Shown: positions 22,547 through 46,864 of the stretch, one piece after another | Numbering within the stretch: position 1 is the first letter of the stretch | Layout: every line of letters begins with the position of its first letter | From: Nitrospira sp. | GTDB taxonomy: Bacteria; Nitrospirota; Nitrospiria; Nitrospirales; Nitrospiraceae | Assembly (NCBI GenBank): GCA_013140455.1 | Contig: JABFSU010000136.1 | Span: forward strand, 1 to 57,486 | Length of the DNA stretch: 57,486 bases | Reading direction: 5' to 3' | Program-made: the position numbers and the translations under genes | The notes under the pieces: model-generated | Databases searched by the model: none | What the model was told of the DNA's origin: nothing | What the model saw: only the letters and a program-made list of their open reading frames with translations

Positions 22547-22590
22547 CCACCTATTCGGTCTCAGCACTCGTCCATGGTGGATCACTCTAG

Positions 22591-23821: not shown

Positions 23822-23937
23822 ATTGATGCAAGGCTCATCAGTGCAGTAGCAAACCTCTGAGTGAATCCTTGCGCTCGACTCGCTCGCCAATCGAGCAATC
23901 TACTCCTGTTCAGACAGACGCGACACTCCAGCATGAA

Positions 23938-23953
23938 TGGTCCACCCCTTGCA
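23938..23953 (+). promoter_or_regulatory. Sigma-54 (-24/-12) promoter
   Basis: TGGTCCACCCCTTGCA: TGG at -24 and TTGCA at -12, with the obligatory 10 bases between GG and GC. It precedes the second 28-residue microprotein gene, with a leader of about 68 bases. Confidence 0.72.
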
Positions 23954-24031: not shown

Positions 24032-24118
24032 ATGGATTTCACACTCCTCCTCCTACTTTCCAACATATTCATGGCCTGCTTCATCTACCTGATCGTGCGG
24101 CTGATTTGGCAGGAGTAG
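24032..24118 (+). CDS. 28-residue single-pass membrane microprotein (copy 2)
   Basis: Strong AAAGGAG ribosome site, then 28 codons. The product starts MDFTLLLLLSN, has a single membrane span and ends LIWQE. It is paralogous to the 22793 gene (same length, 14 of 28 identical, conserved MDF, N11, MA, FI, LIW), and both sit behind sigma-54 promoters with the same upstream element. No partner gene follows directly on this strand; the next clear plus-strand gene starts at 25030. It probably arose by local duplication of promoter plus gene. Confidence 0.8.
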   Translation: MDFTLLLLLSNIFMACFIYLIVRLIWQE

Positions 24119-26214: not shown

Positions 26215-26270
26215 GACCAGCGACAAATGTGTCTGACACCTCTCACAGTTCAGATGGGCTTGAGGACGGC

Positions 26271-28576: not shown

Positions 28577-31573
28577 ATGAAGAGAATAGGCTTGAAAGAT
28601 GGGAGCCGACACCTGCACATGCATGACGTGGCCCCCTTTCTCGCGAGCCTCGTCATATTCCCTTTTTACTTTCTCACTCTCGGCCACGCTCAAATCTCCC
28701 CGCCCATCACATCCTCTGGTCTGAACACGGTCGTGACAACGAACGGCAATGTTCACAGTATCACTGGCGGCACACGGCCTGGCAACGGAACAAACCTCTT
28801 TCACAGTTTCGGTGAATTTGGCGTCCCGACAAATAGCATCGCCAGCTTTCTGAATGAGACGGCGCTCCCAACAAACAACATTCTCGGTCGCGTGACCGGC
28901 GGTAATCCCTCGAACATCTTCGGCACCGTGCAAACCACCGGCTTCGATAATGCAAATCTGTTTCTCATGAATCCAGCCGGCATCATATTTGGGCCCAATG
29001 CCACATTGAATATCGGCGGGTCCGTCACCTTCACCACCACCACCGCGGATTACATCAGGCTCGCAACTGACAATGTGCGTTTCAACGCGATTCCCAACGC
29101 AGCAGCCGACGCCCTCCTAAACACGGCTCCGGTCGCCGCCTTCGGGTTTCTCGGATCGAATCCAGGGACCATTACCGTCCAGGGTAGCCAGCTTTCAGTC
29201 TCAGAAGGTCAAGGCATCTCGCTCGTTGGGGGAAACATTACGGTTCAGGCAGGCACGTTGGATGATGGAACGGTCCAGCCGACTCGGCTCTCAGCTCCCG
29301 GCGGTCAGATCAATCTCGCCAGTGTCGCATCGCCTGGCGAGATTGCCGCCGATAGTTTCCTGCCATCACCAGGCACGACGATGGGACATATCAACCTTTC
29401 CCAAGGATCATTACTGGATGTCTCAGCAGATGCCGCTGGGGCGGTCCGGATACGAGGCGGTCAGTTTGTGATGGATCAAGCCACGATTTCCACCGACACG
29501 GCCAATGTAAATGGCACGCCGGTTGCGATCGACATTAATGTCACCGGTGATATGTCCATCTCGAACGATGGAGCGCCTGCGCTCACTGCAAAATCTTCTG
29601 GTTCAGGTGACGCCGGAGAGATTCGCATTGTGTCCGCCAACTTGACGGTGACATCAACGGCTCTAGACTCAACGCTCGCCCTGATCGATACCCATACCTC
29701 AGGGATGGGCCGAGCGGGGAAGGTCAGTATCACAACCGGCAATCTCGAAGCAGGCAGCGGCGTTTGGTTCATCGATAGCGGAACATCGGCAGCGGGGCAT
29801 GGCAACGATGTCATAATCGATGCAACCAGCGCGCACTTTAACGACGTGAATATCAGCACCGGGGATTTCCGCGCGCACAACCAGGATATCTTTGATGCGA
29901 CAGGCTTTGCCGGAAATATTCGGCTAACGGCGGACTCTCTTAACTTGGTAACGACAGTTCTATCTACAGATTCCTTCCTGGGGCGAGGAGGAGAAAGTAC
30001 ACTGACAGCCAGAACCATTGAGATGACGAATGGTTTGATCGGATCTCTTTCCCTCGGCGGCAGCGGAGCTGTCACCATTGCAGCCGATAGCATACGGATG
30101 ACCCGAGCACAAATTGAGACAGAGACCGCATTCGAACCCGGGCGCGCCATTACTCTTACCGGGAAGGTAATCGAACTCAGAGACGGAACCTCTATACGGA
30201 ACCAGACCTCTGGCAATGCGGATGCCGGCAATATCCTTGTGGCAGCCACAGACCGTCTTACCCTCTCCGACCAGCCCACCACGAGCAGACCCACGGGGCT
30301 CTACACCAACTCGTTAGGCGTCGAAGGCGAACCTCTGGATACGCTCGGGGGAAAATCAGGCTCAATCACGATTACCACCCCTCTGCTTGAAATGAGTGGG
30401 GGGGCACGGATCAACACCACCACGGAAACGAGCGGACGGGGTGGCGATGTCACGATCGTCGCGACCGACCTTCTCTCCATTTCAGGAGAACGGCGCCTCC
30501 CGATCGCCGAAGACGAACTATCCCTTGGTGCCACGAATCCTGGTGGAATATTCACCCGCACTGTCGGCAACCAGTACTGTTCAGGGCCTTGCGGCAACGC
30601 TGGACATATCTCAATCACCACCGGTTCCATGAACTTGAACAGCGGTGCAGCAATCGATAGTGGAACTAGCAGCACCGGACAAGGTGGCGCGATTGGAATT
30701 AACGCAACGAACGCCATCACTCTATCTGGCACGCTAGCTGACGGCACACCAGGTGGCATCTTCAGTCGCGCAGTTGGAACCTCCCAGGATTCGGGCTCAG
30801 GTGGCAACATCGCTCTCACTGCCGGTCAATCAGTGAGCATCTCAGACGGCGCGTCGGTTTCCGCGAGCAGCACCGGCCCCGGCAACGCAGGGAACATTGC
30901 GATCAATGCCGGCCAACAATTTGAAATGCGCAACAGCTCTGTGAAGACGGAAGCGGCGCAGGCGAGCGGCGGGAATATCGACATTCAGGCCATCGACCGT
31001 ATCCGACTGGTGAATAGCTCCATCAGCACGTCCGTCCTCGGCGGCGCGGGCAGCGGTGGAAATATTACCATCGATCCCAATGTCGTCATCTTGCAGAACA
31101 GCCAGGTGATCGCGCAGGCCTTCCAGGGTTCCGGAGGGAACATTTCCATCACGACTCCCCTCTTCCTGGCCGATGCAAGCAGCCTGGTCGATGCCTCGTC
31201 GCAGTTCGGCTTGAACGGCACGGTGAATATCCAGAGTCCGACCTCGAACCTGGCAGGCACGGTCTCCTCACTCCCCTCTTCGCTTCGCCAGGTGCAGTCC
31301 CTCCAGACCGGCCGTTGCGCCGCATTGGCCGATAGCCGATCCAGCAGCCTGATCGTCGCCGGGCGCGATAATCTTCCGGCGGAACCGGGCGGCTGGTCGC
31401 CCAGTCCCTTCGCGCTCATGGGCGAAGAGACCGATTCGCTTGCCATCGCGTCACCGCCGGTCGCCACCATGACCGCATCAGCCGATGCCCCGGTTTCGTT
31501 GCGCCGGTTGACCCCCGCAGGCTTTCTGACACAGCGCTTTGCGGAGAATGGATTGACTGGATGCCGAGCGTAA
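28577..31573 (+). CDS. TpsA-type filamentous haemagglutinin-family exoprotein
   Basis: 998 residues. An extended signal peptide (to about residue 38, FLTLGHAQ) is followed by the TPS/haemagglutination-activity domain (GLNTVVTTNGNVHSITGG ... NLFLMNPAGIIFGPNATL), the recognition region for the TpsB pore. The rest is a long right-handed beta-helix with G-N-I-x-I and G-D-V-x-I rungs (GSITITTPLLEMSGGARI, GGNIDIQAIDRIRLVNSS). It ends in a Cys-containing segment (TGRCAALAD...; final GCRA), as in cyanobacterial-type TpsA. A surface or released adhesin or structural exoprotein, exported by the next gene product. Confidence 0.92.
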   Translation: MKRIGLKDGSRHLHMHDVAPFLASLVIFPFYFLTLGHAQISPPITSSGLNTVVTTNGNVHSITGGTRPGNGTNLFHSFGEFGVPTNSIASFLNETALPTNNILGRVTGGNPSNIFGTVQTTGFDNANLFLMNPAGIIFGPNATLNIGGSVTFTTTTADYIRLATDNVRFNAIPNAAADALLNTAPVAAFGFLGSNPGTITVQGSQLSVSEGQGISLVGGNITVQAGTLDDGTVQPTRLSAPGGQINLASVASPGEIAADSFLPSPGTTMGHINLSQGSLLDVSADAAGAVRIRGGQFVMDQATISTDTANVNGTPVAIDINVTGDMSISNDGAPALTAKSSGSGDAGEIRIVSANLTVTSTALDSTLALIDTHTSGMGRAGKVSITTGNLEAGSGVWFIDSGTSAAGHGNDVIIDATSAHFNDVNISTGDFRAHNQDIFDATGFAGNIRLTADSLNLVTTVLSTDSFLGRGGESTLTARTIEMTNGLIGSLSLGGSGAVTIAADSIRMTRAQIETETAFEPGRAITLTGKVIELRDGTSIRNQTSGNADAGNILVAATDRLTLSDQPTTSRPTGLYTNSLGVEGEPLDTLGGKSGSITITTPLLEMSGGARINTTTETSGRGGDVTIVATDLLSISGERRLPIAEDELSLGATNPGGIFTRTVGNQYCSGPCGNAGHISITTGSMNLNSGAAIDSGTSSTGQGGAIGINATNAITLSGTLADGTPGGIFSRAVGTSQDSGSGGNIALTAGQSVSISDGASVSASSTGPGNAGNIAINAGQQFEMRNSSVKTEAAQASGGNIDIQAIDRIRLVNSSISTSVLGGAGSGGNITIDPNVVILQNSQVIAQAFQGSGGNISITTPLFLADASSLVDASSQFGLNGTVNIQSPTSNLAGTVSSLPSSLRQVQSLQTGRCAALADSRSSSLIVAGRDNLPAEPGGWSPSPFALMGEETDSLAIASPPVATMTASADAPVSLRRLTPAGFLTQRFAENGLTGCRA

Positions 31574-31586
31574 GGTCGAGGCTTGG

Positions 31587-33350
31587 ATGAGGAATCACAG
31601 ATCGTTTGCGCGGCCGAGCGCAGGCATCGCTCTTCGTGCGGGGTTCGTCATGCTGCTCACGCTGACCCCTTCAGCTCTCCTGGCTCAGGCCCTTCCGCCG
31701 GTCTTCGATCCGACCGGCCGATCCGGTGAACCACCCGGTCCGCTCAAGAAGGAGTTCAGGCCGCCGGCTCCCCCGCCAAGCATGGTCCTGCCGCCGGTGC
31801 CACAGGCGCCGGATAGCGACCTGCAGCGGCAATTGGGACAGATCCGCGTTTTCGTGCACGACATCCATGTGACGGGCAACACCGTCTTTACGGAGGCGGA
31901 GATCGACCAGGTCACGAAGCCGTTCAAGGGCCGCACCCTCACGACGGATGACCTGGAGCGGCTGCGGCTGGCGCTGACCCTGCTCTACGTCAATCGAGGC
32001 TACATCACGTCGGGCGCGATTATTCCCGATCAGGACGTGACGCTCGGCGTCATCACCTATCACATCGTCGAAGGCACGGTCGCGCGGATCGATGTGGAAG
32101 GGACCGACTGGTTCCGTGACGGCTATCTGCGCGACCGGGTGGCGCTGGGCGTCAAAACGCCCTTTGCCATCACGCCGCTACAGGAACGGCTGCAACTGCT
32201 CCAGCAGGACCAGCGCCTTGAGCGCATCAACGCGGAACTCCGCCCCGGCGATCGCCGCGGGGAGAGCGTGCTGAATCTGCGGGTGAAGGAAGCCTCTCCG
32301 TGGAAAGCCTGGCTGGATTTCAATAACCATCAGACACCGGTCGTGGGCGCCGAACGGGGGCTGGCGACGATCGCACACCAAAATGTCACCGGCCACGGCG
32401 ATGCCTTCAGCTTCACCTATGGCCGGTCGCGCGGCGTGAATCCGATCATCGACACTTCCTACACGATTCCGGTGAATCGGTACGATACCACTCTGTCGGC
32501 CTACTACCGGCGTAACGATTTCCTCGTGGTCGATGAGAGCTTCCGCTTTCTCGACTTGAAGGCCGACGCTGAGATCTTCGGCATCACACTCCGCCAGCCG
32601 CTCTACAAAACGCTCACCGATGAGTTTGCCGTCGCGATCACCGGGGAACGGCTCTATAACAAGGTGACTTCCGCGTTCGACCAGGCCGGGCTCCCTTCAC
32701 TGTTCATCCCCGGCTCATCGGACACCGGCGTCAACACGGTCAGCGCGCTCCGCTTCATTCAAGAATATGTTCATCGCACGTCGAACTCGGTCATCGCTGT
32801 CCGTTCCCGCTTCTCCGTCGGGCTCGACGTGCTCGGCGCGACCAATAACTCCGGCCCGCTGCCGGACACCCAGTTCTTCTCCTGGTTGGGTCAAGTGCAG
32901 GGGTTGCAGCGACTCGACGACTGGGGGGGCGTGCAGCTGCTGGGACAGATGAGCCTCCAGCTCGCGAACGACCGCCTCTTCCCGCTGGAACAGGTGCCGG
33001 TCGGCGGACGCTTCAGTGTCCGTGGCTATCGCGAGAACACGCTCATTCGCGACAACGCGTTTCTCGCCTCCATTGAGTCCCGCATCCCGCTGCTCACGTT
33101 TCCCTCCGGCGAGCCCCGCCTCCAATTCGCGCAATTCGCCGATGTGGGCCGCGCCTGGAATGCCAAAGGCGGCACACCCGATCCGCAGACGCTGGCGAGC
33201 GTCGGATTGGGCATACGGTGGAGTCTTCTCCCTCAGGAGCGCGCACGGTTTGAACTCTACTGGGGACAACCGCTCAATCACGTTCCGCATCCGCCCGGCA
33301 ACCTGCAGGATCACGGCATCCATCTGCAGTTTGTCATGCAAGTCTTATAA
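31587..33350 (+). CDS. TpsB outer-membrane transporter (ShlB/FhaC/HecB family)
   Basis: 587 residues: signal peptide, a Pro-rich stretch, a first POTRA domain (VFVHDIHVTGNTVFTEAEIDQV), a second POTRA (GTVARIDVEGTDWFRDGYL) and a C-terminal 16-strand barrel. The family signature VRGYRENTLIRDNAFLASIE is intact, and the end is FVMQVL. It secretes the TpsA protein encoded 13 bases upstream across the outer membrane. Confidence 0.94.
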   Translation: MRNHRSFARPSAGIALRAGFVMLLTLTPSALLAQALPPVFDPTGRSGEPPGPLKKEFRPPAPPPSMVLPPVPQAPDSDLQRQLGQIRVFVHDIHVTGNTVFTEAEIDQVTKPFKGRTLTTDDLERLRLALTLLYVNRGYITSGAIIPDQDVTLGVITYHIVEGTVARIDVEGTDWFRDGYLRDRVALGVKTPFAITPLQERLQLLQQDQRLERINAELRPGDRRGESVLNLRVKEASPWKAWLDFNNHQTPVVGAERGLATIAHQNVTGHGDAFSFTYGRSRGVNPIIDTSYTIPVNRYDTTLSAYYRRNDFLVVDESFRFLDLKADAEIFGITLRQPLYKTLTDEFAVAITGERLYNKVTSAFDQAGLPSLFIPGSSDTGVNTVSALRFIQEYVHRTSNSVIAVRSRFSVGLDVLGATNNSGPLPDTQFFSWLGQVQGLQRLDDWGGVQLLGQMSLQLANDRLFPLEQVPVGGRFSVRGYRENTLIRDNAFLASIESRIPLLTFPSGEPRLQFAQFADVGRAWNAKGGTPDPQTLASVGLGIRWSLLPQERARFELYWGQPLNHVPHPPGNLQDHGIHLQFVMQVL

Positions 33351-33361: not shown

Positions 33362-35719
33362 ATGAGCCCTAGACGCATCCTCCTCCGCCGCACTGCATCA
33401 GGGGCCGGCTCTCGGCGCGCCGCCGGATGGATCCGCCGCTGGATCGGCCTGACACTCTTCGCACTCTCGCTCACGACCGGGGTGCAGGGGGCAACCACCC
33501 CGGATAGTCTCGACACCCTGCTGGCGCAGGGCACCGACGCCTTTCGCCGCGGCGCGTTTGAACAAGCCCTCGCCACCTGGAAAGAAGCCGCCAGGCTTGC
33601 CGGCGAACGCGGCGCGACCCGCGAACACATCCAGGCCCTCCTCGGCACCGCACAAGCGGCGCAGGCCCTCGGTCAGTCCAAGCAGGCCCTGCTCCAGCTT
33701 GATCTTGCGCTGGTGCTCTCACACAACAGCGGCGATCCGCAGACCACAGCGGGCGTGCTGGCCCAACTCGGTCGCACGTATCTCGCGGTCGGTCACCTCG
33801 ATGAAGCCGAGGAACGCCTGACCGACGCGTTGACGCTCGCCCGTCGAGACGCCTCACCTGCACTCACGGCCGCCATCTTGAACGATCTGGGCATTCTCCA
33901 CGCCCTCAGACACGAGGACGCCGAGGCGCTGGCTTCATTTCATGACAGTACGACGATTGCGCAGGACGCCGGGCTTCCCATGGTCGCGATTACCGCAAGA
34001 ATCAATGCCGCGCGCGCGGCGTTGCGGCTCGGCCAGCCACAGGACAGCCGGCTCTGGCTCGATCAATCACTCGACCAGGCCCGTGAACTGTCCCCGTCTT
34101 ACAACAAGGCCGTTGGCTTGATTAATATCGGGCTGGGCTACGGGCACCTGCGGCCGCTCCTGCCTGCCATCGGCGATGCGCTGCTCATACGAGCCGCCGG
34201 CGTGTTGCAAGAAGCGGTAGCCCTCTCGGAACGATTGGGAGATGCGCGCACCTCGTCCTATGCGCTGGGCTATCTCGGGCATCTCTACGAAACAGAACGG
34301 CGCACCGAGGAAGCGCTGCAGTTGTCCCGGCGCGCGGTATTCTCCGCACAATCCGCGGGCGTACCGGAAGCCCTTTACCGCTGGCAGTGGCAGGTGGGCC
34401 GGCTGCTGGCGTCGAGCGGCCACCTCGACGACGCCATCACCTCCTACCGGCAGGCCGCCGCCACCTTGCTGCCCATCAGACCGGAAGTGGCCCGCGCCTC
34501 CTATGAGGCGTCGACTCCGGACCAGGAGTCTGTGCGCCCCTTGTTTTTCGAACTGGCCGACCTCCTGCTCCAACGCGCCGGGTTGACGGATGACGCCCCC
34601 ACCGCACAGGCCTATCTCCTGACGGCGCGCGACGCGATCGAAGCCTTCAAAGCGGCTGAATTGCGGGAATACTTCAAGGACGAATGCGTCGATGCCCTGC
34701 AGGCCCGCATCACCAAGCCCGACCAGCTCTCCCCGACCACGGCGGTGATCTATCCCATCATGTTCGCAGACCGATTGGACATGCTCGTCAGCCTCCCGAC
34801 CGGGATGACAAGAATCACTGTGCCGATTCCTGCCGTAACATTGGCGCAGGAAGTCCGTGCGTTCCGCCGCACGGTCGAGAAACGGACGACCAGGGAATAC
34901 CTCACCCATGCCCAACAGCTCTACGACTGGCTGGTTCGACCGATCGAGGCAGACCTGACCCGCTTGCACATCAATACGCTCGTGTTTGTCCCAGACGGAG
35001 CGCTTCGCACCATTCCCCTGGCAGCCTTACATGATGGAACCGGCTTCCTCATTCAGAAATTTGCCGTGGCGCTGACCCCCGGGCTCAATCTCACGGATCC
35101 CCACCCGATTAACCGCGAGACCGTCCGGTTTCTGTCCACCGGACTGACACAGGCCGTCCAGGGATTTCCGGCGCTTCCGTACGTGGCCGAAGAAATGGGG
35201 GCAATCCACGATCTCTATCGCGGCGATCAACTGCTCAACAGCGAGTTTCAGACAGCCCGACTGGAGCAGGAATTGCTGGACGGTCAGTTCGGCGTGTTGC
35301 ACATTGCCACGCACGGAAAGTTTTCGACGGATGCGAACGAGAGTTTTCTGGTGACGTTCGACGGAAAACTCACCGTGAATCAGCTGGACCGGCTGATCGG
35401 CCTGTACCGGCTCCGGCAGGAACCGCTCGAACTGCTCACCCTCAGCGCCTGCCAGACCGGCGTCGGCGATGATCGCGCCGCCCTCGGCCTCGCGGGAATC
35501 GCCATCAAAGCCGGCGCGAGAAGCGCGATCGCCACGCTGTGGTTCATCAATGATGAAGCTTCTGCCGCGCTGATTTCAGAATTCTATCGGCAGCTCCGGA
35601 ATCCCTCGATTTCCAAAGCGGTCGCATTGCAACAGGCTCAGGCGAAGCTGTTGGCTGATCGGGTCTATGAGCATCCTGCTTACTGGTCACCCTTCTTGTT
35701 GCTCAATAACTGGCTATAA
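33362..35719 (+). CDS. TPR-CHAT protease
   Basis: 785 residues. A signal or membrane segment is likely at about residues 20-42 (IGLTLFALSLTTGVQGATT). Tetratricopeptide-like repeats follow over about residues 45-420 (GAFEQALATWKEAARLAGERG, GHLDEAEERLTDALTLARR). The C-terminal CHAT (caspase/separase-like) domain has the catalytic pair His651 (LHIATHGKF) and Cys697 (TLSACQTGVGDDRAALGLAG). CHAT proteins cleave specific protein substrates. It sits 11 bases after tpsB, and a role in processing the exoprotein or another envelope substrate is inferred from position only. Confidence 0.9.
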   Translation: MSPRRILLRRTASGAGSRRAAGWIRRWIGLTLFALSLTTGVQGATTPDSLDTLLAQGTDAFRRGAFEQALATWKEAARLAGERGATREHIQALLGTAQAAQALGQSKQALLQLDLALVLSHNSGDPQTTAGVLAQLGRTYLAVGHLDEAEERLTDALTLARRDASPALTAAILNDLGILHALRHEDAEALASFHDSTTIAQDAGLPMVAITARINAARAALRLGQPQDSRLWLDQSLDQARELSPSYNKAVGLINIGLGYGHLRPLLPAIGDALLIRAAGVLQEAVALSERLGDARTSSYALGYLGHLYETERRTEEALQLSRRAVFSAQSAGVPEALYRWQWQVGRLLASSGHLDDAITSYRQAAATLLPIRPEVARASYEASTPDQESVRPLFFELADLLLQRAGLTDDAPTAQAYLLTARDAIEAFKAAELREYFKDECVDALQARITKPDQLSPTTAVIYPIMFADRLDMLVSLPTGMTRITVPIPAVTLAQEVRAFRRTVEKRTTREYLTHAQQLYDWLVRPIEADLTRLHINTLVFVPDGALRTIPLAALHDGTGFLIQKFAVALTPGLNLTDPHPINRETVRFLSTGLTQAVQGFPALPYVAEEMGAIHDLYRGDQLLNSEFQTARLEQELLDGQFGVLHIATHGKFSTDANESFLVTFDGKLTVNQLDRLIGLYRLRQEPLELLTLSACQTGVGDDRAALGLAGIAIKAGARSAIATLWFINDEASAALISEFYRQLRNPSISKAVALQQAQAKLLADRVYEHPAYWSPFLLLNNWL

Positions 35720-35795
35720 AGGATCTCGACCCTATGCTAGAGTACGATTCATGCATGGATATTCACCAAAAAGCCTCAGCAAGAGGGGGTGCACG

Positions 35796-36554
35796 GTGAA
35801 ACCCACGTTGTTGTTTTACATCATCTGTACAATGCCCCTGGGCTTGACACTGGTGGAACCGACGCAGGCCACGGCAGGATCCGGGCCGTCCGACGCCCCT
35901 CACGTCGCCTCCCCTGATGATCTGTCGCTGCCGATCTATACCCCGCCCAGGAGATTTTCGCCTCGAGCGCGGGTCGGCGGGGAAATGCGTGGGACCGGCG
36001 GTAGCGACCCTGAAATTCAAGCCCTCGTCCCCGATCATGTCGGCCTGACGATCAATCAAACGCCGGTGCTGAATTGGTTTCTTTCCAAACCCACGGCCTA
36101 TACCGTTCGTTTCACGCTGATCGATAATCGCTCGATCAAGCCGGTGCATGAAGCCCCCATCCCTTCTCCGACGAAGGCAGGAATTCAGACGATTAATCTG
36201 AAGGAGATGGGACTGACGCTCGAACCGGACGTGCAGTATCGCTGGTACGTCTCTGTGATTCGTAACCCTGACTCGCCGTCGCAGGATATCGTGGCGGGGG
36301 GAGTCATTGAGCGCTGTGAATTCAATGCCTGTCTCGTCGAAGCAGGCCCCCACCTCACCTGCAGCACGCAGAGCGTGCAGGACAACGCCCGCCGGGGATT
36401 CTGGTACGACGCCATGGCCTGTCTCTGCGCGCTCATCGATGCCCAGCCCACCGACGCCCCGCTCAGACGCATGCGCGCCGCGCTGCTGAAACAAGTCGGT
36501 CTTCACGGGGTGGCCGAGTGGGATCTTCGTTCCCTTACGACGCCGACCCGATAG
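35796..36554 (+). CDS. DUF928-domain exported protein
   Basis: 252 residues from GTG 35796, preceded by AGAGGGGG at six bases; an in-frame ATG at 35751 is the alternative. Signal peptide (LLFYIICTMPLGLTLVEPTQA). DUF928 features: PPRRFSPRARVGGEMRGTGG, then PEIQALVPDHVGLTINQTPVLNWFL and a beta domain with PDVQYRWYVSVI, plus four Cys in the C-terminal part. DUF928 proteins of unknown function occur next to TPS and CHAT genes in cyanobacteria, which is the arrangement here. Probably the last gene of the TPS operon. Confidence 0.85.
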   Translation: MKPTLLFYIICTMPLGLTLVEPTQATAGSGPSDAPHVASPDDLSLPIYTPPRRFSPRARVGGEMRGTGGSDPEIQALVPDHVGLTINQTPVLNWFLSKPTAYTVRFTLIDNRSIKPVHEAPIPSPTKAGIQTINLKEMGLTLEPDVQYRWYVSVIRNPDSPSQDIVAGGVIERCEFNACLVEAGPHLTCSTQSVQDNARRGFWYDAMACLCALIDAQPTDAPLRRMRAALLKQVGLHGVAEWDLRSLTTPTR

Positions 36555-36623: not shown

Positions 36624-36658
36624 TCACATTTTCCGCATACCGGCAGGCGAATCCTTTC

Positions 36659-36676
36659 CGATCCACTTTCGGATCG
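36659..36676 (+). promoter_or_regulatory. Dyad upstream of the third sigma-54 promoter
   Basis: CGATCC-N6-GGATCG, perfect 6-bp arms, ending 118 bases before the -24 GG at 36794. It differs in sequence from the 22591/23797 elements but sits at the same distance, as expected for an activator site. Confidence 0.4.
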
Positions 36677-36707
36677 CATCTGATCCACTCTCATCGGCTC
36701 TCGCAGT

Positions 36708-36727
36708 GCCCCATCGCGATATGGGGC
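36708..36727 (+). promoter_or_regulatory. Second dyad upstream of the third sigma-54 promoter
   Basis: GCCCCAT-CGCGAT-ATGGGGC, perfect 7-bp arms, centred about 76 bases before the -24 element. It could be a second activator site, an operator, or a hairpin terminator; TTTTT follows ten bases later. Confidence 0.35.
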
Positions 36728-36792
36728 GTCTCCGATGCGGTTTTTCCAACATTCTTATCCCAAAACATCCCCGCTCAATCGGAAAGGGCCAA

Positions 36793-36808
36793 TGGCATAC
36801 GGCTTGCG
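36793..36808 (+). promoter_or_regulatory. Sigma-54 (-24/-12) promoter
   Basis: TGGCATACGGCTTGCG: TGGCA at -24, TTGC at -12, exactly 10 bases between GG and GC. Predicted start near 36819, about 37 bases before the ATG of the 57-residue membrane protein. Confidence 0.72.
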
Positions 36809-36855
36809 AACTCATCCGGCAGGACAGTAATGAGACAGCCTCAGGAGTCCACACC

Positions 36856-37029
36856 ATGACACAAGAATTGCTTATCCTGGCGTTGTTAACAGGACTGGTA
36901 GGAATTTCGTGGCTCATGGTTCTCTCGATCACCCGCGACGATCGCCGTACTGACAAAGGGGTTCATGCTCATGACACAACAGATCTCGAAAAAGACCGGG
37001 CACCATCGCATCGAGGGATGGCAGCCTGA
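36856..37029 (+). CDS. 57-residue single-pass membrane microprotein
   Basis: ATG 36856 with CAGGAG nine bases upstream. Residues 4-25 form one hydrophobic span (ELLILALLTGLVGISWLMVL), followed by a charged tail (ITRDDRRTDKG...). No family recognised. The 3' end overlaps the next gene by about 60 bases in another frame. It is the first gene behind the sigma-54 promoter at 36793. In architecture it resembles the 55-residue protein at 46965-47132, with weak similarity in the membrane span. Confidence 0.68.
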   Translation: MTQELLILALLTGLVGISWLMVLSITRDDRRTDKGVHAHDTTDLEKDRAPSHRGMAA

Positions 37030-37372
37030 CCGGACTCCAGGCGGTCGCCCCCGGCCCCTATTGAGTCAGACTCCCGGTGGTTCTCTTCACGCATTGCCCC
37101 TCACGGGAGCGATCGCAACGGCAGACTTGCGCAATCAGCGTGTCACCATCCTTCTCCCGACGACCCTGATCGAACGCCTGCGTAATGCCATTTACTGGAC
37201 CGAACAGCACACGATGACTCGCGTCATTACGGATGCCATTCACGATGCGGTGGCCGAAATGGAGCAGGTCAACGGCGGCATCTTTCCTCTTCGCCTCACC
37301 CCGCTGAAACGAGGACGCCCCCGCCGTGCACCCCTTCCACAACGCCTTCCCCCTACCGAGCCGCTCCTGTAG
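36971..37372 (+). CDS. Ribbon-helix-helix (CopG/Arc-like) protein
   Basis: 133 residues from ATG 36971 (AAAGGGG nine bases upstream; ATG 36965 is the alternative). After a Pro/Gly-rich N-region comes a ribbon-helix-helix pattern: strand QRVTILLPTTLIERLRNAIYW, then helix TRVITDAIHDAVAEMEQVNGG, and a basic LTPLKRGRPRRAP tail. Such proteins are dimeric DNA-binding repressors. Overlap with the microprotein gene suggests translational coupling. It may autoregulate this unit; the target is unknown. Confidence 0.72.
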   Translation: MTQQISKKTGHHRIEGWQPDRTPGGRPRPLLSQTPGGSLHALPLTGAIATADLRNQRVTILLPTTLIERLRNAIYWTEQHTMTRVITDAIHDAVAEMEQVNGGIFPLRLTPLKRGRPRRAPLPQRLPPTEPLL

Positions 37373-37425: not shown

Positions 37426-39438
37426 ATGAACGCAGAGCTGAGACGATCAGGCCATCCGATGCTGGCCACGCTGCTGACCGTGAGTCTGAGCGGCCTGGCG
37501 CAGACGGAATCCCCCGCCGCGGACCCAACCAACGTGACCGACTCGGCTCCTCACATCGACGCCATCGAATTGATCAAAGAAGAAGAAAGCGTGGGTATTG
37601 CCTCACGCTATGAACAACCGATCTCGCAAGCGCCGGCCAACGTATATGTGATCACGGACGAGGACATCCGGCATTCGGGAGCCACCGACATCCCTACCCT
37701 CCTCCGTCGTATCCCCGGGATGGAAGTGATGCAGATGAACGGTGCGGACTTTAACGTCAGTGTTCGGGGGGACAATCAGGACAATGCCAACAAGCTGTTA
37801 GTCATGGTTGACGGACGCTCAATCTATCTTGACGTTCAAGGAACTATGAACTGGAAACTCCTGCCGGTCACACTACCGGAAATTAAACGAATCGAGGTGT
37901 TGAAAGGACCCGCTTCTGCGGTATGGGGGTTCAACGCTTTCGACGGCGTGATCAATATCATCACGAAATCCCCGGAGGAAATGAAAGGCACCACCCTGCA
38001 ATTCGGTGGCGGGGGATACGGCACCCTCATGGCCTCCGCGATCCAGGCCGGCACCGTGGACAAGTTCGGCTATCGTCTCTCCATTGGGCACAATCAGAAC
38101 GCGTCCTGGAGCAACAGCAGTTCCTTGGCCTTCCGGAACAATTTGCTCAACGTCTTAACCGAATATGCCCTTGCACCGGAATCCAAAATCAAGATCTCCG
38201 GCGGAATTGTGGACGCCAATGCGTTTAACTCCCTCGTGGGCCAGGATGTCATGATCTCCCAACGCCCCGCACAGAGCTACGCCAGCATAAGCTACGAACG
38301 CTCGAATTTCTTTGTGCGGGCGTTCTGGAATCGGCTTGATATCACCGCGAATCCCCTGTTCCAGCCTCCACTGGCCCCGTTTCTAAGCCTGACCAGTAGA
38401 GATGGCTCTCCCACACAAACCTTTGTGGGCAATACCTATAACATCGACGTTCAGCATTCCCTCGCCTTGTGGCCTGGAAACCGTGTGACCTATGGACTGA
38501 ACTATCGGCTCAATACTCTTTCGAGCAACACCCTCTCGCAGGACAGCTCCGAGAACAGACTGGGATTTTTCGTCCAGGATGAATGGAAGATAGCTCACCC
38601 GGTCACAATCGTGGCCGGCGTTCGTTACGACCTCAACACCTTTATGGGTCCGACAATCAGCCCCCGGATCGCCCTCCTCTACGCACCATCCCCAGATCAT
38701 ACGTTTCGATTCTCTGGCTCTGTGGCGTATCGGCCGCCGGCACTGCTCGATAAGAAAGAGGATGTGAGAGTGACGACGAACCCACCCTTGCCATCAGTAA
38801 CGACGTCCGTGGTGGGAGGCCAAAGTCTCTCGCCTGAACAAATCATCTCCTACGAAGCAGGCTATCAGGGGTGGTATTGGCAGCACCGGTTCCGGATACG
38901 TGCGGACGCCTTTTATAATCACATCTCCGATCTCATCAGTGTTCGCAATCAATCCGCCACCCTCGCAACCTTTAGCAACGACACCGGCTCTGCCGATATC
39001 TATGGCGGCGAAGCCGGAGTGGAATTCCTCGCCACCAAGTGGCTGACCGGGTTTGCCAATTACTCCTACCAGGAGATTCACCAGACGTTTACAGGGCGCG
39101 TCCAACGTGCCGGTCCCCGCAATAAGTTCAATGTCGGCTTGCGCGGTGAGTGGGACAACGGACTCAGCGCCGAAGCGATCTTTCATTACTACGGATCGGC
39201 CAGCTATCCCCCGGGTCAGTCGTTCACGACCTTCTCTCAAGCCGGCCTCGTCTCCTTGCCGAACCCGAACGTCGGTTCCTACAATCTCTTGAACTTGCGC
39301 GCCGGCTACCGGTTTTGGCACGACCAGGCCGAAGTGGCCGTGTCCGCATTCAACGCCCTCAACGACAAGCACCAGGAGTATCCTCTTGGTGAGGCCATCG
39401 GCAGCCGGGTGATGGGCTGGTTGACGGTGAGGTTCTAA
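37426..39438 (+). CDS. TonB-dependent outer-membrane receptor
   Basis: 670 residues. The plug domain is at about 60-180 (ISQAPANVYVITDEDIRHSGATDIPTLLRRIPGMEV; VSVRGDNQDNANKLLVMVDGR; IEVLKGPASAVWGFNAFDGVINIIT). A 22-strand barrel follows, ending in a terminal Phe (MGWLTVRF). It imports a siderophore, vitamin or other ligand with TonB energy; the ligand is not deducible. An N-terminal extension before the plug could hold a weak TonB box (IDAIELI). It lies upstream of the sensory cluster 39579-46864 and may supply or be regulated by it. Confidence 0.92.
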   Translation: MNAELRRSGHPMLATLLTVSLSGLAQTESPAADPTNVTDSAPHIDAIELIKEEESVGIASRYEQPISQAPANVYVITDEDIRHSGATDIPTLLRRIPGMEVMQMNGADFNVSVRGDNQDNANKLLVMVDGRSIYLDVQGTMNWKLLPVTLPEIKRIEVLKGPASAVWGFNAFDGVINIITKSPEEMKGTTLQFGGGGYGTLMASAIQAGTVDKFGYRLSIGHNQNASWSNSSSLAFRNNLLNVLTEYALAPESKIKISGGIVDANAFNSLVGQDVMISQRPAQSYASISYERSNFFVRAFWNRLDITANPLFQPPLAPFLSLTSRDGSPTQTFVGNTYNIDVQHSLALWPGNRVTYGLNYRLNTLSSNTLSQDSSENRLGFFVQDEWKIAHPVTIVAGVRYDLNTFMGPTISPRIALLYAPSPDHTFRFSGSVAYRPPALLDKKEDVRVTTNPPLPSVTTSVVGGQSLSPEQIISYEAGYQGWYWQHRFRIRADAFYNHISDLISVRNQSATLATFSNDTGSADIYGGEAGVEFLATKWLTGFANYSYQEIHQTFTGRVQRAGPRNKFNVGLRGEWDNGLSAEAIFHYYGSASYPPGQSFTTFSQAGLVSLPNPNVGSYNLLNLRAGYRFWHDQAEVAVSAFNALNDKHQEYPLGEAIGSRVMGWLTVRF

Positions 39439-39578
39439 ATGGTTTCCTTAAGTGGTATATCTCTACTATGCTTGCGCGATTCCCGTGACGGTACCGCGCA
39501 AACACACCGACACTCCGCCTTGGGCAACGGTGAGTCAAGCCGTTGCCTATTACGAAGGCTTCACTGACTGAGGGCGCT

Positions 39579-41999
39579 ATGGCCGGCGAAGCCCCTTCAT
39601 ATACCGTACTCGTCGTGGAAGACAATCCGGATATTGTCGTCAGCCTGCAGGACCTGCTCACCCACGACGGCTATACCGTCCATACCACCGACTCTTGTGC
39701 CGGCGCACTCGCCCAGCTCCGTGCCCATCATTTCAATGCGGTCTTGCTTGATCTCACCTTGCCGGACGGCGATGGCCTTGAGGTGCTCGCCACAATCCAA
39801 CAGCTGGACCCGCATTTATCCGTGATCATCGTCACAGCCAGCACGGCGACGGAGAAAACGGTGGGGTCGCTGACCAGGGGGGCCTTCGCCTACTTGACCA
39901 AACCCTACCATCGCGAGGAGCTTCGGCAGACGCTTCGCCGCGCGATCGGGGTGAAGGAACTGGCGGTGAAAGCCCAACGCGCCGAACATCTCCTGACGGA
40001 AAGCGAAGACCGCTTCCGCTCACTGGTCGAGTCGGCCAGCGACGCCATCGTGGTCGCCGATGGGCGAGGAATCATCGTCTCGCATAATCGATCAGCTGCG
40101 ATCATGTTCGGCTACCAGCCACACGATCTGGTCGGTCAACCGCTCACGGTCCTGATGCCCTCGCGGTATCACCATCGCCATATTGCCGGCCTGGCCCGTC
40201 TGGAAGGGGGCGGATCGGGGCGGCTCATCGGATCGGTCATCGAACTGCAGGGGCTCAAGCAAGACGGCACCGAATTTCCGATCGAACTCTCGTTGGCCAC
40301 CTGGAAAACAGAGACCGGCAACTTCTATAGCGGCATCATTCGCGACAGTTCCAAACGGAAAGAAACGGAGCGGGCGCTGGATGAACTGCGTCGCCGGCAC
40401 AGCCTCATCCTGACACAGGCCGGCGAGGGCATCTATGGCATCGATCGCCAGGGACTCGCCACGTTCGTGAATCCGCGCGCGGCCGCAATGCTCGGGTATG
40501 CGGTGAAAAACTTGATCGGACGCCCCATGCATGCGCTCCTACACCACACCAGAATCGACGGAACCCCGTACCCTGAAGACTCCTGTCCGATCTACGCCGC
40601 CCTGCACGACGGTGAGATCCATCGCGTCTCGCATGAAGTATTCTGGAAGCGCGACGGCACCAGCTTCCCGGTCGAATACGTCAGCTCTCCGCTGTGGGAG
40701 GACGACACCGTCGCCGGGGCGGTCGTGGTCTTTCATGATACGACCAAACAGTGGCGGATTGAATCGGGATTGCGGGAACGGGAAGACCGTCTGGAATACG
40801 TGATCCGCGGATCGAGCGACGGATTCTGGGATGGACAGGTCCTGCCCGGCCAGCCGTGGCATCATCCTCATACCCCGGTCTGGTGGTCACCGCGGGTGCG
40901 CGAGTTGTTAGGATACAGCCGGGAGGAGTTTCCGGACATTCTGGAAAGCTGGACGTCCCGGTTGCATCTTGAAGATGGTGAGCGAGTCCTGGCCGCATTG
41001 CGCGCGCACCTGGAACAGCACGAACCGTACGACGTGGAATACCGGCTCCTCACGAAACACGGCGAATACCACTGGTTCCGCGCACGCGGTCTGGCCGTGT
41101 GGGATGACGAGGGACATCCCATCCGCATGGCAGGCTCCTTACAGTGCATCACCGACCGCAGACGGATCGAAGAAGCCCTCCGACGCAGCGAACGGCTCCT
41201 GAAAGATGTGATCGATAACACCACCGCCGTCATTTACGTGAAGGGGACGGACGGACGGTTCATGCTGACGAATCGCCGGTTCGAACAGTTGTTCAACCTG
41301 ACCGCCGATCAGATCGTCGGGCGCACCAATCATGATCTCTTTCCCCGCGAGATTGCCGACGCGTTCAGCGCCAACGATCGCCAGGTGTTGGAACGCAAGA
41401 CTCCGGTGGAGTACGACGAAATCGCCCCTCATCGGGACGGCCTCCACGATTATATCTCGATCAAATTTCCGCTCTGCGACGAAACCGGCACACCCTACGC
41501 CATGTGCGGAATCTCCACCGACATCACCGAACGGAAACGTCTGGGAGATTCCCTCCGCATCAACGAGGAGCGGGTTCAGCTCGCGCTCATGAGTGCGCGC
41601 ATTGGCATCTGGGACTGGAACCTGCAGACGGACCACTACTACTGGTCGCCGATCGTCAACGATCTACTCGGCCTGCCGGTCGGCGCCGGTTCCCTCTCCA
41701 GGCAGGATTTTCTGGCCAGCGTCTATGCAGACGATCAGGCCTCTGTTCTGGCGGCGTTGCTGGCGGCACAACATTCTTCACAGACTGAGCTCGCCTTTGC
41801 TCACCGCGTGTGCCGGGCCGACGGCACGCTCCAGTGGCTCTCATGGTCGGGCCATATCGTTCGGAGTGCGACCGGCGCAGCGACCCGCATCCTGGGGACC
41901 GTTCAATCGACAACACCCGGACAGATGACGCCGTCAGAGCCCGCGCAGACAGGTCGCAACGCCCTAGAGAAACCGCGACACGATCATACGCCATCATGA
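39579..41999 (+). CDS. Receiver protein with five PAS domains and no output domain
   Basis: 806 residues from ATG 39579 (CTGAGGGCG upstream; the frame opens earlier at a TTG). N-terminal CheY-like receiver (VEDN; phospho-acceptor Asp58 in LLDLTLPDG; Lys in TKPYH). Five PAS/PAC units follow (starting near RFRSLVESASDAIV, RHSLILTQAGEGIY, LEYVIRGSSDGFWDG, LKDVIDNTTAVIYVK, VQLALMSARIGIWDW), several ending in DITERKR-type PAC motifs. The protein stops 40 residues after the last PAS, with no kinase, cyclase or DNA-binding part. Cytosolic. It starts the four-gene sensory cluster and presumably signals by interaction. Confidence 0.86.
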   Translation: MAGEAPSYTVLVVEDNPDIVVSLQDLLTHDGYTVHTTDSCAGALAQLRAHHFNAVLLDLTLPDGDGLEVLATIQQLDPHLSVIIVTASTATEKTVGSLTRGAFAYLTKPYHREELRQTLRRAIGVKELAVKAQRAEHLLTESEDRFRSLVESASDAIVVADGRGIIVSHNRSAAIMFGYQPHDLVGQPLTVLMPSRYHHRHIAGLARLEGGGSGRLIGSVIELQGLKQDGTEFPIELSLATWKTETGNFYSGIIRDSSKRKETERALDELRRRHSLILTQAGEGIYGIDRQGLATFVNPRAAAMLGYAVKNLIGRPMHALLHHTRIDGTPYPEDSCPIYAALHDGEIHRVSHEVFWKRDGTSFPVEYVSSPLWEDDTVAGAVVVFHDTTKQWRIESGLREREDRLEYVIRGSSDGFWDGQVLPGQPWHHPHTPVWWSPRVRELLGYSREEFPDILESWTSRLHLEDGERVLAALRAHLEQHEPYDVEYRLLTKHGEYHWFRARGLAVWDDEGHPIRMAGSLQCITDRRRIEEALRRSERLLKDVIDNTTAVIYVKGTDGRFMLTNRRFEQLFNLTADQIVGRTNHDLFPREIADAFSANDRQVLERKTPVEYDEIAPHRDGLHDYISIKFPLCDETGTPYAMCGISTDITERKRLGDSLRINEERVQLALMSARIGIWDWNLQTDHYYWSPIVNDLLGLPVGAGSLSRQDFLASVYADDQASVLAALLAAQHSSQTELAFAHRVCRADGTLQWLSWSGHIVRSATGAATRILGTVQSTTPGQMTPSEPAQTGRNALEKPRHDHTPS

Positions 42000-42990: not shown

Positions 42991-45309
42991 ATGACCGCCG
43001 AACTGACCGCTCTCCAGAATCCGACACCGCCTTCCGGCGCACCGCCGAGGCCGTTCATCAGCTTGCGGACGAAATTTGTCGTGTTCTTCAGCCTGATTTT
43101 GGTCCTGACCTGTTCAACGTTGAGCTGGTATTTTGTTGAAATACGACGCGATGCCATGCTGCAGAACCTCCATCGCCTCGGCACCATCCTCCTGACCAAT
43201 ATCGCGCACAACAACCATTTCCGGTTTGCCGGCCTGGTGGCGGAAGATCAGACGACGCTGCAACAGTACATCGAAGGGCTCCTCTCCATCGATGAAGTCG
43301 TCTATGTGGTCGTCACAGGCTCAAACGGCCAGACGCTCGCCCGATACAGCAAGGGAGCGCGCCAGTCGTTGACAGACCCACAACGGTCCCTCTCCCATCC
43401 GATCTACCCCCCCGCAGACATCGTCCAGAGACTGGCGCAAACGCCGGCTACGGTCCCGCAGATTACTCCCCTTGTAGTCTCGGATCAGCTCACACTCGCC
43501 CCTCAGAATCAAGGCTCCCTCATGACGCAGGTATTCCCCACTCTGTCCGAGACGCTCTATGACTTTGCCTTGCCGGTCCTTCGGGCATCACCCGCACCCA
43601 TGACCCCGTTTACGCTCGACCCCGAATCCTCTGCCATCGACGGGACGATGATGAAACGGCCACCGGTCTACGGCGTCATTCAAATCGGCCTCACCGATGA
43701 GCGCGTGCGCCAGGCCGTGCTGACCATGATCCAGAATGTCTTTGCCCTGACCGCCCTCATTATCGGAGCCGGCATACTCGGCGCGCACCTGCTGACCTCG
43801 CGCATTACGACTCCCTTGCGACGCCTGGCCGGTGTGGCCCGCCAGGTGACTGAGGGAACAGCACCGGTTCAACTGTTCCCTGCCACAAACGACGAGGTCG
43901 GCCAATTGACCGGGCTCTTCAATGTCATGGCCCGGTCAGTTCAAGAGCGGAATCAGGCCATTACCACCAACCTTGAGACGATCAAACAACAATTCAGGCA
44001 GCTGACCACCCTCCATCAAGCCAGCGCCGCCATTGCGAGCACCCTGGACATGAACCATCTCCTCGACACGGTGCTCCAACTCCTGGTCGGCAATCTGGGC
44101 TTCCTGCGCATGGTGCTGGTCCTGCGACTTGAAGAGCGCGATGTGTCGTACATCGCCCGCGTCACGGGGATCTCGCCCGAGATTGCTGAGATCGCCTATA
44201 ATCTGGAAATTCCCATACGCGACGACGGCAGCATCACCGCGGATCTGTTTCTTCGCCGCGAACCGGTGCTCATCCAGGCGCTCGACGCCGCAGCCAACCG
44301 GATCTATCCGCCGGTGATGGAATTACTGCAACGCGCCGGCATCTCGTCGTTTATTGCCGTTCCTCTTCAGAGTCATCACGGGACCTTGGGATACATCGCC
44401 GGCGATCGAGGCGCCCAGATATGCACGGAAGAAGACCTGCATATTCTTCTGACGATCGCCAGCCATGTGGCCGCCGCGATCGATAACGCCCGCGCCTATG
44501 CCCACCTCTCCGAGCTGACCCAGCATCTGGAAGAGCGCATCCGCGAGCGCACGGAGGAACTCTCGCGCGCCAATGACCAACTCCAAGCTCACGATCGACG
44601 GCGCTCGACCTTCCTGTCGGTTGTGTCTCATGAGTTGCGCACGCCCATGACCGCCATTCGAAGTTTTGCCGAAAACATGCTGGATGGTGTCACCGGACCA
44701 TTGACAAACCAGCAGACGACCTACCTCACGCGGATCGAGCACAACGTGGCGCGGCTGGCCCGCATCATCAACCAGCTGTTGGATTGGTCGCGGCTGGATA
44801 CCCACAAAGATGCGCTTCGGCTTGAACCGGTCTGTATTGCGGAGATCGCCGCCACTGCCGCAGAAGGCCTGCAGACGGTCGCAGCAGAAAAACAAATCGC
44901 CCTCCGGATCGAGCCGGAACGGCCCCTCCCCAGGATTTACGGCGACCGCGACAAGCTGGAACAAATCCTCTGGAATCTGATCGGCAACGCCATCAAGTTT
45001 ACCCCTCCCGGCGGGGCTGTCACCGTCACGTTCTCCGGTGATGCGGCTGGGATGGTCAAGACCTGCGTGGCCGATACCGGATGCGGGATTGATCCGCTCC
45101 ACTTGCCGAGCGTCTTCAACGAATTTTCAAAAGTGCCGTCGTCGATGCCGTCCTCGCAAGGCGCTCAATTGGGCCTGTTCATTACCAAGACGTTGATCAC
45201 CATGCACCGGGGAGAAATCTGGGCGGAGAGCACGCCAGGCCGCGGAACCTGCATCTGTTTTACGCTGCCGATCGCGCCAACCCCGGAGACAGAACGGCCG
45301 CCGCAATGA
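42991..45309 (+). CDS. Membrane sensor histidine kinase (HAMP-GAF-HisKA-HATPase)
   Basis: 772 residues. TM1 at about 28-50, a periplasmic domain to about 240, TM2 at about 247-270 (ALTALIIGAGILGAHLLT), HAMP (TPLRRLAGVARQV), a GAF domain at about 345-505, a short coiled coil, then HisKA with His547 in VVSHELRTPMTAIRSF. The HATPase has the N box (LEQILWNLIGNAIKF), G1 (VADTGCGID) and F box (FNEFSKV). Its G2 box reads GAQLGLFI instead of GxGLGL, a mild deviation. It receives input from the periplasm (perhaps via the adjacent binding protein) and probably phosphorylates the NtrC-type regulator downstream. Confidence 0.93.
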   Translation: MTAELTALQNPTPPSGAPPRPFISLRTKFVVFFSLILVLTCSTLSWYFVEIRRDAMLQNLHRLGTILLTNIAHNNHFRFAGLVAEDQTTLQQYIEGLLSIDEVVYVVVTGSNGQTLARYSKGARQSLTDPQRSLSHPIYPPADIVQRLAQTPATVPQITPLVVSDQLTLAPQNQGSLMTQVFPTLSETLYDFALPVLRASPAPMTPFTLDPESSAIDGTMMKRPPVYGVIQIGLTDERVRQAVLTMIQNVFALTALIIGAGILGAHLLTSRITTPLRRLAGVARQVTEGTAPVQLFPATNDEVGQLTGLFNVMARSVQERNQAITTNLETIKQQFRQLTTLHQASAAIASTLDMNHLLDTVLQLLVGNLGFLRMVLVLRLEERDVSYIARVTGISPEIAEIAYNLEIPIRDDGSITADLFLRREPVLIQALDAAANRIYPPVMELLQRAGISSFIAVPLQSHHGTLGYIAGDRGAQICTEEDLHILLTIASHVAAAIDNARAYAHLSELTQHLEERIRERTEELSRANDQLQAHDRRRSTFLSVVSHELRTPMTAIRSFAENMLDGVTGPLTNQQTTYLTRIEHNVARLARIINQLLDWSRLDTHKDALRLEPVCIAEIAATAAEGLQTVAAEKQIALRIEPERPLPRIYGDRDKLEQILWNLIGNAIKFTPPGGAVTVTFSGDAAGMVKTCVADTGCGIDPLHLPSVFNEFSKVPSSMPSSQGAQLGLFITKTLITMHRGEIWAESTPGRGTCICFTLPIAPTPETERPPQ

Positions 45310-45424: not shown

Positions 45425-46864
45425 ATGCGCGCCAAAATCCTCCTCGTCGATGACGACCGGGATATCCTGCTCGGTCTGGAAAACCGCATCACATGGATGG
45501 GGCATGAACCCCTGACCGCAAGCGACGGGGCAGAGGCGCTGCGACTCATTGAACAGGAGGCGCCGGATCTTGTCCTCCTCGATCTGGAACTCCCCCATCG
45601 CTCCGGGCTGGAAGTCTTACAACAGGTTCGGGAAGCCGCCGCCGTTGCAGCGGGGCCCGACTCGGAGACTCCCTTGGCCACCTATACCACGCCGTTGATT
45701 ATTATCCTGACCGCCTTCGGCACGATCGAGCGCGCCGTGCAAGCCATGCACTTAGGGGCCTTCGACTTCCTGACCAAGCCCTTCACCGCCGACCACCTCA
45801 CCGTCGTGATCAAGAAAGCCCTTGAGACCCTCGCGCTGGATCGCCATGTTGATGTCCTCCGCAAGGAAGTCGAGGGACAGTACGATCCTATCGTCGGAAC
45901 CAACCAGAAAATGGCGGCGCAACTCGCCATTGCCAAGCAAGCGGCGGCAGCGCCGGTCACCGTCCTGTTGCTCGGCGAGACCGGCACCGGGAAAGAAGTG
46001 ATTGCGCGCGCGATTCACCGTTGGAGCCCGCGACGGGATAAGCCGTTCGTCGCAGTGAACTGCGCGGCCTTACCGGATACCCTCCTGGAGAATGAGCTGT
46101 TTGGACATGAACGAGGGGCCTACACCGGCGCGCTGAAGCGGGAACCCGGAAAAATCGAAATCGCCGAAGGGGGCACCGTCTTCCTGGACGAGATCGGCGA
46201 TATGCCGCTGCTCATGCAGAGCCATCTGTTGCGCGTGCTTCAGGATCAGACCTTCTATCGAGTGGGCGGCACGCAGCTCATCCGGACCAATGTGCGCTTT
46301 ATTGCCGCGACCAACAAAGATTTGCGGCAGGCGATCCGCCAAGGCACCTTTCGGGAAGACCTGTACTACCGGCTCGCCGTAATCACCAGCACTCTTCCAC
46401 CCCTGCGGGAACGCCTGGACGACCTCCCGGCGCTGTCCGAGTATTTCCTCCGGCGCGCCGCCGGACTCGGCACCCATCGCCAATACACACTGAGCGACCG
46501 CGCGCTCACGCTCATGCACCAATATCATTGGCCGGGAAATGTCCGCGAGCTGGAGAATGTACTGACCCGCGCCGTCATCCTCTCCACAGGCGCGACGATT
46601 GAGCCATCGCACCTGTCGCTCATGGCGGTCTCATCGACACCCGATCAGGAATCAGGACTGGACTCGTCGCTGCATGCCTATCATGAAATGATGGAGGCCT
46701 ACAGCAAGAACATCCTGGCGAGAGCCCTCCAGCAGAACGGATGGAACCAAACGAGAGCCGCTGAAGCGCTGAAACTCCAGCGCACCTATTTCACCAAACT
46801 GCTCCGGCAGAAACAGATCTCCGGGCATCCTCCCCACACCCGTCCCGACAATGAGGCAGAATAA
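45425..46864 (+). CDS. NtrC-family sigma-54 activator response regulator
   Basis: 479 residues. The receiver (Asp9-Asp10-Asp11, phospho-acceptor Asp53 in LLDLELP, TKPF) carries an unusual ~20-residue Ala/Pro/Thr-rich insert before the fourth strand (EAAAVAAGPDSETPLATYTT). The AAA+ domain has Walker A GETGTGKE, Walker B TVFLDEIGDM and the sigma-54 contact loop as GAYTGA rather than GAFTGA. The C-terminal Fis-type HTH is GWNQTRAAEALKLQRTYFTKLL. It remodels RNA polymerase-sigma-54 when phosphorylated, most likely by the kinase encoded just upstream. It is the obvious candidate to drive the -24/-12 promoters in this window. Confidence 0.95.
   Translation: MRAKILLVDDDRDILLGLENRITWMGHEPLTASDGAEALRLIEQEAPDLVLLDLELPHRSGLEVLQQVREAAAVAAGPDSETPLATYTTPLIIILTAFGTIERAVQAMHLGAFDFLTKPFTADHLTVVIKKALETLALDRHVDVLRKEVEGQYDPIVGTNQKMAAQLAIAKQAAAAPVTVLLLGETGTGKEVIARAIHRWSPRRDKPFVAVNCAALPDTLLENELFGHERGAYTGALKREPGKIEIAEGGTVFLDEIGDMPLLMQSHLLRVLQDQTFYRVGGTQLIRTNVRFIAATNKDLRQAIRQGTFREDLYYRLAVITSTLPPLRERLDDLPALSEYFLRRAAGLGTHRQYTLSDRALTLMHQYHWPGNVRELENVLTRAVILSTGATIEPSHLSLMAVSSTPDQESGLDSSLHAYHEMMEAYSKNILARALQQNGWNQTRAAEALKLQRTYFTKLLRQKQISGHPPHTRPDNEAE

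Follow-up and report, generated by a model that had tools for sequence, protein, structure and literature searches.

Two-component systems of the NtrB/NtrC, ZraS/ZraR and AtoS/AtoC kind combine a histidine kinase with a REC-AAA+-Fis regulator, a -24/-12 promoter, an autoregulated operon and tandem dyads located about 100-140 bp upstream. Here we describe a Nitrospira gene cluster that shares this plan, with autoregulation as a prediction, and that differs from the NtrC, ZraR and AtoC systems in its site (TGAATC-N6-GATTCA), in its link to a TpsA/TpsB/CHAT/DUF928 module and in its microproteins. PrsK/PrsR (PEP-CTERM exopolysaccharide, TIGR02915) resembles the cluster in being an NtrC-type regulator of a surface system. 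A described likeness for one of the microproteins is MgrB, a small single-pass protein that takes part in feedback on PhoQ/PhoP and is made under the control of that system (PMC2789325).

Results

The window, the whole stretch of 57,486 nucleotides that was analysed, is contig C34 of a 143-contig, 3.79-Mb assembly of Nitrospira sp. A preliminary description had placed three sigma-54 promoters within 15 kb of it (here U1, U2 and U3), all in front of tiny membrane proteins, and had read them as one regulon. The U3 -24/-12 element, TGGCATACGGCTTGC (36793-36807, plus strand, as are all elements and genes given below for the three units, the surface module and the sensor operon), has GG at -24 and GC at -12 at the correct spacing; four of the five orthologues are identical and the fifth differs by one letter. 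To align the upstream regions, we used the window together with G050, G014, G068 and G067, which carry close orthologues (70-76% identity) of the gene for a ribbon-helix-helix (RHH)-like protein in this unit. Across these five genomes, 23 of the 25 letters at 36788-36812 are invariant (92%), compared with 51% between the tandem sites described below and the promoter and 32% in the leader, so that the proposed promoter is nearly unchanged between divergent flanks. Two more distant genomes have an element of the same type in the orthologous position; microproteins of the U3 type are preceded by TGGCACATACCTTGC in G003 (59 aa) and by CGGCATGTGGTTTGC in G069 (60 aa). An rpoN gene, whose absence the preliminary description had named as grounds for rejecting the promoters, lies on contig C47 in the same assembly (PF04552, E = 3.4e-57).

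We rejected the -24/-12 consensus as sole evidence. At no more than one mismatch, the window contains 10 matches versus 7.2 expected from shuffles, which is not above chance, and the genome-wide excess is weak, with 21 strict matches versus 14 for the reversed control. The significance of the U3 promoter therefore derives from its conservation and from the tandem sites, not from the consensus by itself. The same genome-wide list bears on the idea, implied by the preliminary description, that tiny membrane proteins are the usual targets of sigma-54 in this organism. The idea draws its appeal from three cases within 15 kb, but only one of the 21 strict matches, U3, precedes a single-pass microprotein, which refutes it at this level and leaves it next to no credence. 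Among the remainder, some stand in front of a REC protein, of putative flagellar proteins or of proteins with signal-peptide-like N-termini, and many fall inside long open frames. The strict matches at L009 and L010 precede two ORFs, which we take to be one with an N-terminus of flagellar rod/hook type and one resembling FliL; flagellar genes are expected sigma-54 targets.

Taking 36648-36807 as the control region of the U3 operon, we identified two tandem 18-bp dyads of the form NGRATY-N6-GRTYCN: site a, CGAATC-CTTTCC-GATCCA (36648-36665), and, 22 bp after it, site b, CGGATC-GCATCT-GATCCA (36670-36687). Each site is 83% invariant in the five genomes (15 of 18 letters for site a), and within the half-sites 21 of 24 letters do not vary. 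The perfect dyad that had first drawn attention to this region, CGATCC-N6-GGATCG, does exist at 36659-36676, 118 nt before the GG, and is the sole exact match in the window. It is, however, a mere fragment of the tandem, the right half of site a joined to the left half of site b, and in relatives just 4-5 of its 6 arm positions are paired; we therefore rejected it as an operator, the conserved unit being the two tandem 18-bp sites. A second dyad that had been pointed out, GCCCCAT-N6-ATGGGGC (36708-36727), is likewise present in the window, but every relative retains only 3 of its 7 pairs and 30% of its letters are invariant, and we attribute it to chance. When two mismatches were allowed, the dyad pattern occurred at a chance-level count.

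The other two units are built alike. In U1, enhancer-like sites a (TGGATC-ACTCTA-GATTCA, 22578-22595) and b (GGAATT-ATATTA-GGTTCC, 22599-22616) are followed by the sigma-54 element TGGCCCGCACATTGC (22738-22752), a 28-aa microprotein, MDFGLILLATNTLMAIFIFFVLNLIWKQ (22793-22879), and, 3' of it, a single-domain REC protein (23016-23495). In U2, sites a (TGAATC-GAAAGT-GATTCA, 23784-23801) and b (TGAATT-ATTTTA-GGTTCA, 23805-23822) are followed by the element TGGTCCACCCCTTGC (23938-23952) and a second 28-aa microprotein, MDFTLLLLLSNIFMACFIYLIVRLIWQE (24032-24118). The -24 elements are weaker in U1 (TGGCCC) and U2 (TGGTCC). The tandem ends 123 nt before the GG in U1, 117 nt in U2 and 107 nt in U3, making the equal distances first reported approximate.

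Within its own 3.79-Mb genome, the tandem (20 specified positions, at most one mismatch) occurs only at U1, U2 and U3, an exclusivity that, together with the cognate-looking NtrC-type activator and its kinase in the cluster, upholds the reading of the three promoters as one regulon. Because U1-U3 themselves supplied the pattern, they score zero mismatches by design, and the independent test lies in the genus-wide results. The tandem was found with a 5-nt spacer in 52 of 79 genus genomes and with a 6-nt spacer in 46 of 79, and its reversed control gave zero matches in any of the 79. A perfect TGG-N8-TTGC lies 92-135 bp, mostly 104-125 bp, from the tandem at 62 of 144 distinct sites, compared with 0-4 sites in every other 20-bp bin up to 700 bp; it is absent near more than half of the 144, so that some may act otherwise. 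Searching 84,980 species for the strictest form returned 51 matches, nearly all from Nitrospira (titles Nitrospira or Nitrospirae).

Two syntenic positions recur among these sites, one 5' of the module that begins with a TpsA-like haemagglutinin and the other between the DUF928 gene and the TonB, substrate-binding protein (SBP), kinase and NtrC genes. The module in the window consists of a TpsA-type filamentous haemagglutinin-like exoprotein (28577-31573), an Omp85/TpsB-like (POTRA) outer-membrane protein whose TpsB assignment comes from context (31587-33350), a TPR-CHAT protein (33362-35719) and a DUF928 protein (35769-36554). U3 occupies the second position, 5' of the sensor/regulator operon, and thus most likely drives that operon, regulator included. 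These positions support a regulon that would reach both the TpsA/TpsB/CHAT/DUF928 module and the U3 promoter of the sensor/regulator operon itself. Many genomes have an extra tandem site just 3' of the NtrC gene (L178, L097, L126 and others ending in the NtrC orthologue), often with no perfect -24/-12 nearby. On the haemagglutinin side, proteins of 68-100 aa with a common motif, [IL][KR]PRLLK-like or TKPRLLK, are encoded at the promoter in several Nitrospira (L169, L173, L236). Between U2 and the haemagglutinin gene, the window encodes a secreted-looking protein with a GWCWNAA motif (26229-27158), possibly a papain-like or C39-like peptidase.

The operon downstream of U3 encodes, after the microprotein and the RHH-like protein, a TonB-dependent receptor (37426-39438), an 818-aa REC plus multiple-PAS protein (39543-41999), an ABC-type substrate-binding protein (PF04392; 42004-42978), a HAMP-GAF-HisKA-HATPase sensor histidine kinase (42991-45309) and an NtrC-type sigma-54 activator with REC, AAA+ and Fis-type HTH domains (45425-46864), the proposed binder of the tandem sites. 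Its extents were read from gene order, and scans for sigma-70 promoters and terminators inside it gave counts equal to those of shuffles, which neither support nor break the operon. The receptor gene, placed after the RHH gene and before the REC-PAS gene, is complete in the window and G050. In G067 and G068 just its two ends are left, and G014 lacks it at this locus; this comparison drew on loci L058, L060 and L056 besides the window.

The activator matches PF00072, PF00158 and PF02954, has a GAYTGA loop in its sequence and, with the kinase, is located 8 kb downstream of U3 in the same cluster. Its scores against the NCBIfam NtrC, AtoC, ZraR and NtrX models fell under their cut-offs, and it reached 396.4 bits against the PrsR model TIGR02915 (cut-off 502.6), indicating that it is not a PrsR equivalog. 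An orthologue at no less than 64% identity was found in 45 genomes, of which 38 carry one or more tandem sites no farther than 25 kb from it; among listed tandem sites, 70 of 150 lie within 25 kb of an NtrC orthologue, versus about 1.9 expected. A paralogous NtrC-type activator encoded elsewhere in the genome might bind the sites in place of the cluster's own regulator. NtrC-type paralogues that share 55-61% identity include a copy in the organism's own genome (G000:C31) and, across the genus, a group at 57-61%. A listed site is found without any orthologue of 64% or more in 11 genomes, and six of these have the 57-61% paralogue only, so that a paralogue may share the site. The proximity of site and orthologue in 38 of 45 genomes and the confinement of the genome's three tandem sites to this cluster nevertheless make it improbable that a paralogue is the activator here.

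A further candidate for the sites is the operon's own RHH-like protein, a 133-aa product (36971-37372) for which the dyads could be autorepression operators. RHH proteins often bind tandem repeats by their own promoter, RHH operators typically have two helix-turn-spaced sites, and the U3 sites are close to the RHH gene. The sites, on the other hand, stand at sigma-54 promoters in more than 50 genus genomes, compared with seven in which this RHH gene lies by the regulator operon, and a position 100-120 bp upstream fits an enhancer, not a repressor; we consider this explanation very improbable. We moved the start of the protein from 36965 to 36971, the latter ATG being kept in four close relatives in which the former is missing. 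Its earlier description as CopG/Arc-like would fit a possible strand-helix-helix pattern, and the product is likely RHH-like, but it reached no Pfam family and found nothing in NCBIfam. Pfam RHH_5 gave a weak match in 2 of 8 aligned members (best E = 0.0071), and RHH_1 was weak in some relatives. In the AlphaFold model, a monomer with no assigned strand, helices 64-75 and 82-101 follow an RVTILLP stretch at pLDDT of about 80-88; with this low-confidence model, VIA-align returned YiiF, SegB and VapB at Z 3.4-5.1, and Foldseek no match at E of 0.001 or below. When profiles were compared with solved structures, the one match, to a histidine-kinase chain (E = 0.0047), was unconvincing. The RHH-like protein departs from CopG/Arc in its long, basic and disordered flanks and in its conserved NGGxFPxR...LKxGRPRR tail.

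Other Nitrospira RHH homologues were observed behind a different conserved sigma-54-like element, TGGTACGYCCATTGC, at L064 3360-3690 (own genome, contig C17), L032, L033, L035, L036, L067, L068 and L069. These loci have a nearly invariant leader of about 260 nt that ends in GCCGTGCCTCCGAAAGGAGGCACGGC, has a small ORF inside and folds with seven pairs showing two-sided changes. No Rfam family reached its gathering score in this leader, which is a candidate structured leader or small RNA.

The 57-aa microprotein of U3, beginning MTQELLILALLTGLVGISWLMV (36856-37029), stands behind an AGGAG site, and the claim of a 57-residue single-pass protein is borne out by a strong hydrophobic segment and by conservation: the ORF is kept in seven genomes (57-60 aa, start ATG or GTG), with MTxE, G and W invariant. 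It overlaps the RHH-like ORF by 59 nt (about 60 had been given), second-position changes are few before the overlap, and searches of Pfam and NCBIfam gave no match. The shorter family, of 27-28 aa, was found in 15 places in nine genomes, namely the same seven plus G025 and G071, with MDF...IW largely kept. At all loci of this family the tandem site lies 176-244 nt before the microprotein and the promoter 117-122 bp from the site; several loci of the scan overlap and the U1 copy is shown for some U2 loci, so the U2 copies were examined separately. One hydrophobic segment is kept in both families. In G069 (L061 5736-5659, minus strand), a U1-type microprotein reaches 92 aa through an extension; it is located immediately 3' of the NtrC gene and has the same direction.

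The 57- and 28-codon ORFs could instead be leader ORFs that govern how the gene after them is translated, or else non-coding spacer. They stand first in the transcript, most Nitrospira examined have no such ORF at the same promoter, and the RHH frame constrains the 3' third of the 57-aa ORF. We judge this unlikely in view of the hydrophobic single-pass sequence with its invariant residues across seven genomes, the scarcity of second-position changes before the overlap and the retention of the 28-aa family in nine genomes. A cassette of three genes, for the 57-60-aa microprotein, the RHH-like protein and the REC-PAS protein, is shared by exactly the same seven genomes, and in most Nitrospira examined the U3-position promoter directly precedes the TonB or SBP gene. 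The tiny membrane proteins are a property of a subclade that co-inherited the microprotein-RHH-REC/PAS cassette.

In the 57-aa protein, the charges RDDRR follow the hydrophobic segment. Under the positive-inside rule, positive charges mark the cytoplasmic side, which suggests a cytoplasmic C-terminal tail. The protein is, like MgrB, small and single-pass, with probable control by a two-component system deduced from the shared sites; it differs in having no cysteines and in the suggested cytoplasmic C-terminus, and the likeness carries no established sequence link. MgrB is not known to have a cytoplasmic C-terminal tail of this kind.

Discussion

From the computed elements, their conservation, genome exclusivity, fixed spacing and NtrC linkage, we infer binding, transcription starts, transcript extents and a role for the microproteins. 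Once phosphorylated, the 45425-46864 regulator, paired with the neighbouring kinase, would bind the two tandem 18-bp sites and touch sigma-54 polymerase at the U3 -24/-12 element, some 100 bp further downstream. The resulting transcript would encode the microprotein, the RHH-like protein, the TonB receptor, the REC-PAS protein, the substrate-binding protein, the kinase and the regulator, and the presence of the regulator in its own transcript would amount to positive autoregulation. The same regulator would also switch on U1 and U2, yielding the 28-aa membrane microproteins and leading toward the TpsA/TpsB/CHAT/DUF928 module. We assign a probability of about 0.82 to this reading, in which the cluster's NtrC-type regulator acts through the tandem sites as the activator of its own sigma-54 operon and of U1 and U2.

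The role of the microproteins is a more tentative matter. With a REC gene next in U1 and a REC-PAS protein following in U3, the two units in which a REC-domain partner is paired with a microprotein, our best guess is that the microproteins modulate or tether the co-encoded REC/kinase proteins at the membrane, a role that we regard as possible and no more than that. Equally tentatively, the two unrelated families might be dedicated membrane modulators or tethers of an autoregulated NtrC-type circuit, made from its own sigma-54 enhancer. It is conceivable, at a similarly low confidence, that the circuit controls both itself and the surface secretion module via microproteins acquired by one Nitrospira subclade.

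Nitrospira is an ecologically important genus of nitrite oxidisers, and, to our knowledge, few sigma-54 enhancers can be named outside the well-studied phyla. A search of the literature library used here found no paper on a Nitrospira sigma-54 regulon of this kind. The control circuit proposed here for a cell-surface secretion system is thus previously undescribed in that literature, and its switch is very probably thrown by the cluster's own sensor system. A precise and testable site, the tandem TGAATC-N6-GATTCA, can now be named for Nitrospira together with its likely activator and targets. The regulon agrees with a main role proposed for sigma-54 in controlling the cell exterior (PMC3162934), and it connects a two-partner-secretion/CHAT/DUF928 surface module with a sensor system of which a substrate-binding protein is part. 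Two undescribed microprotein families thereby gain a defined candidate regulator, which opens their function to experiment.
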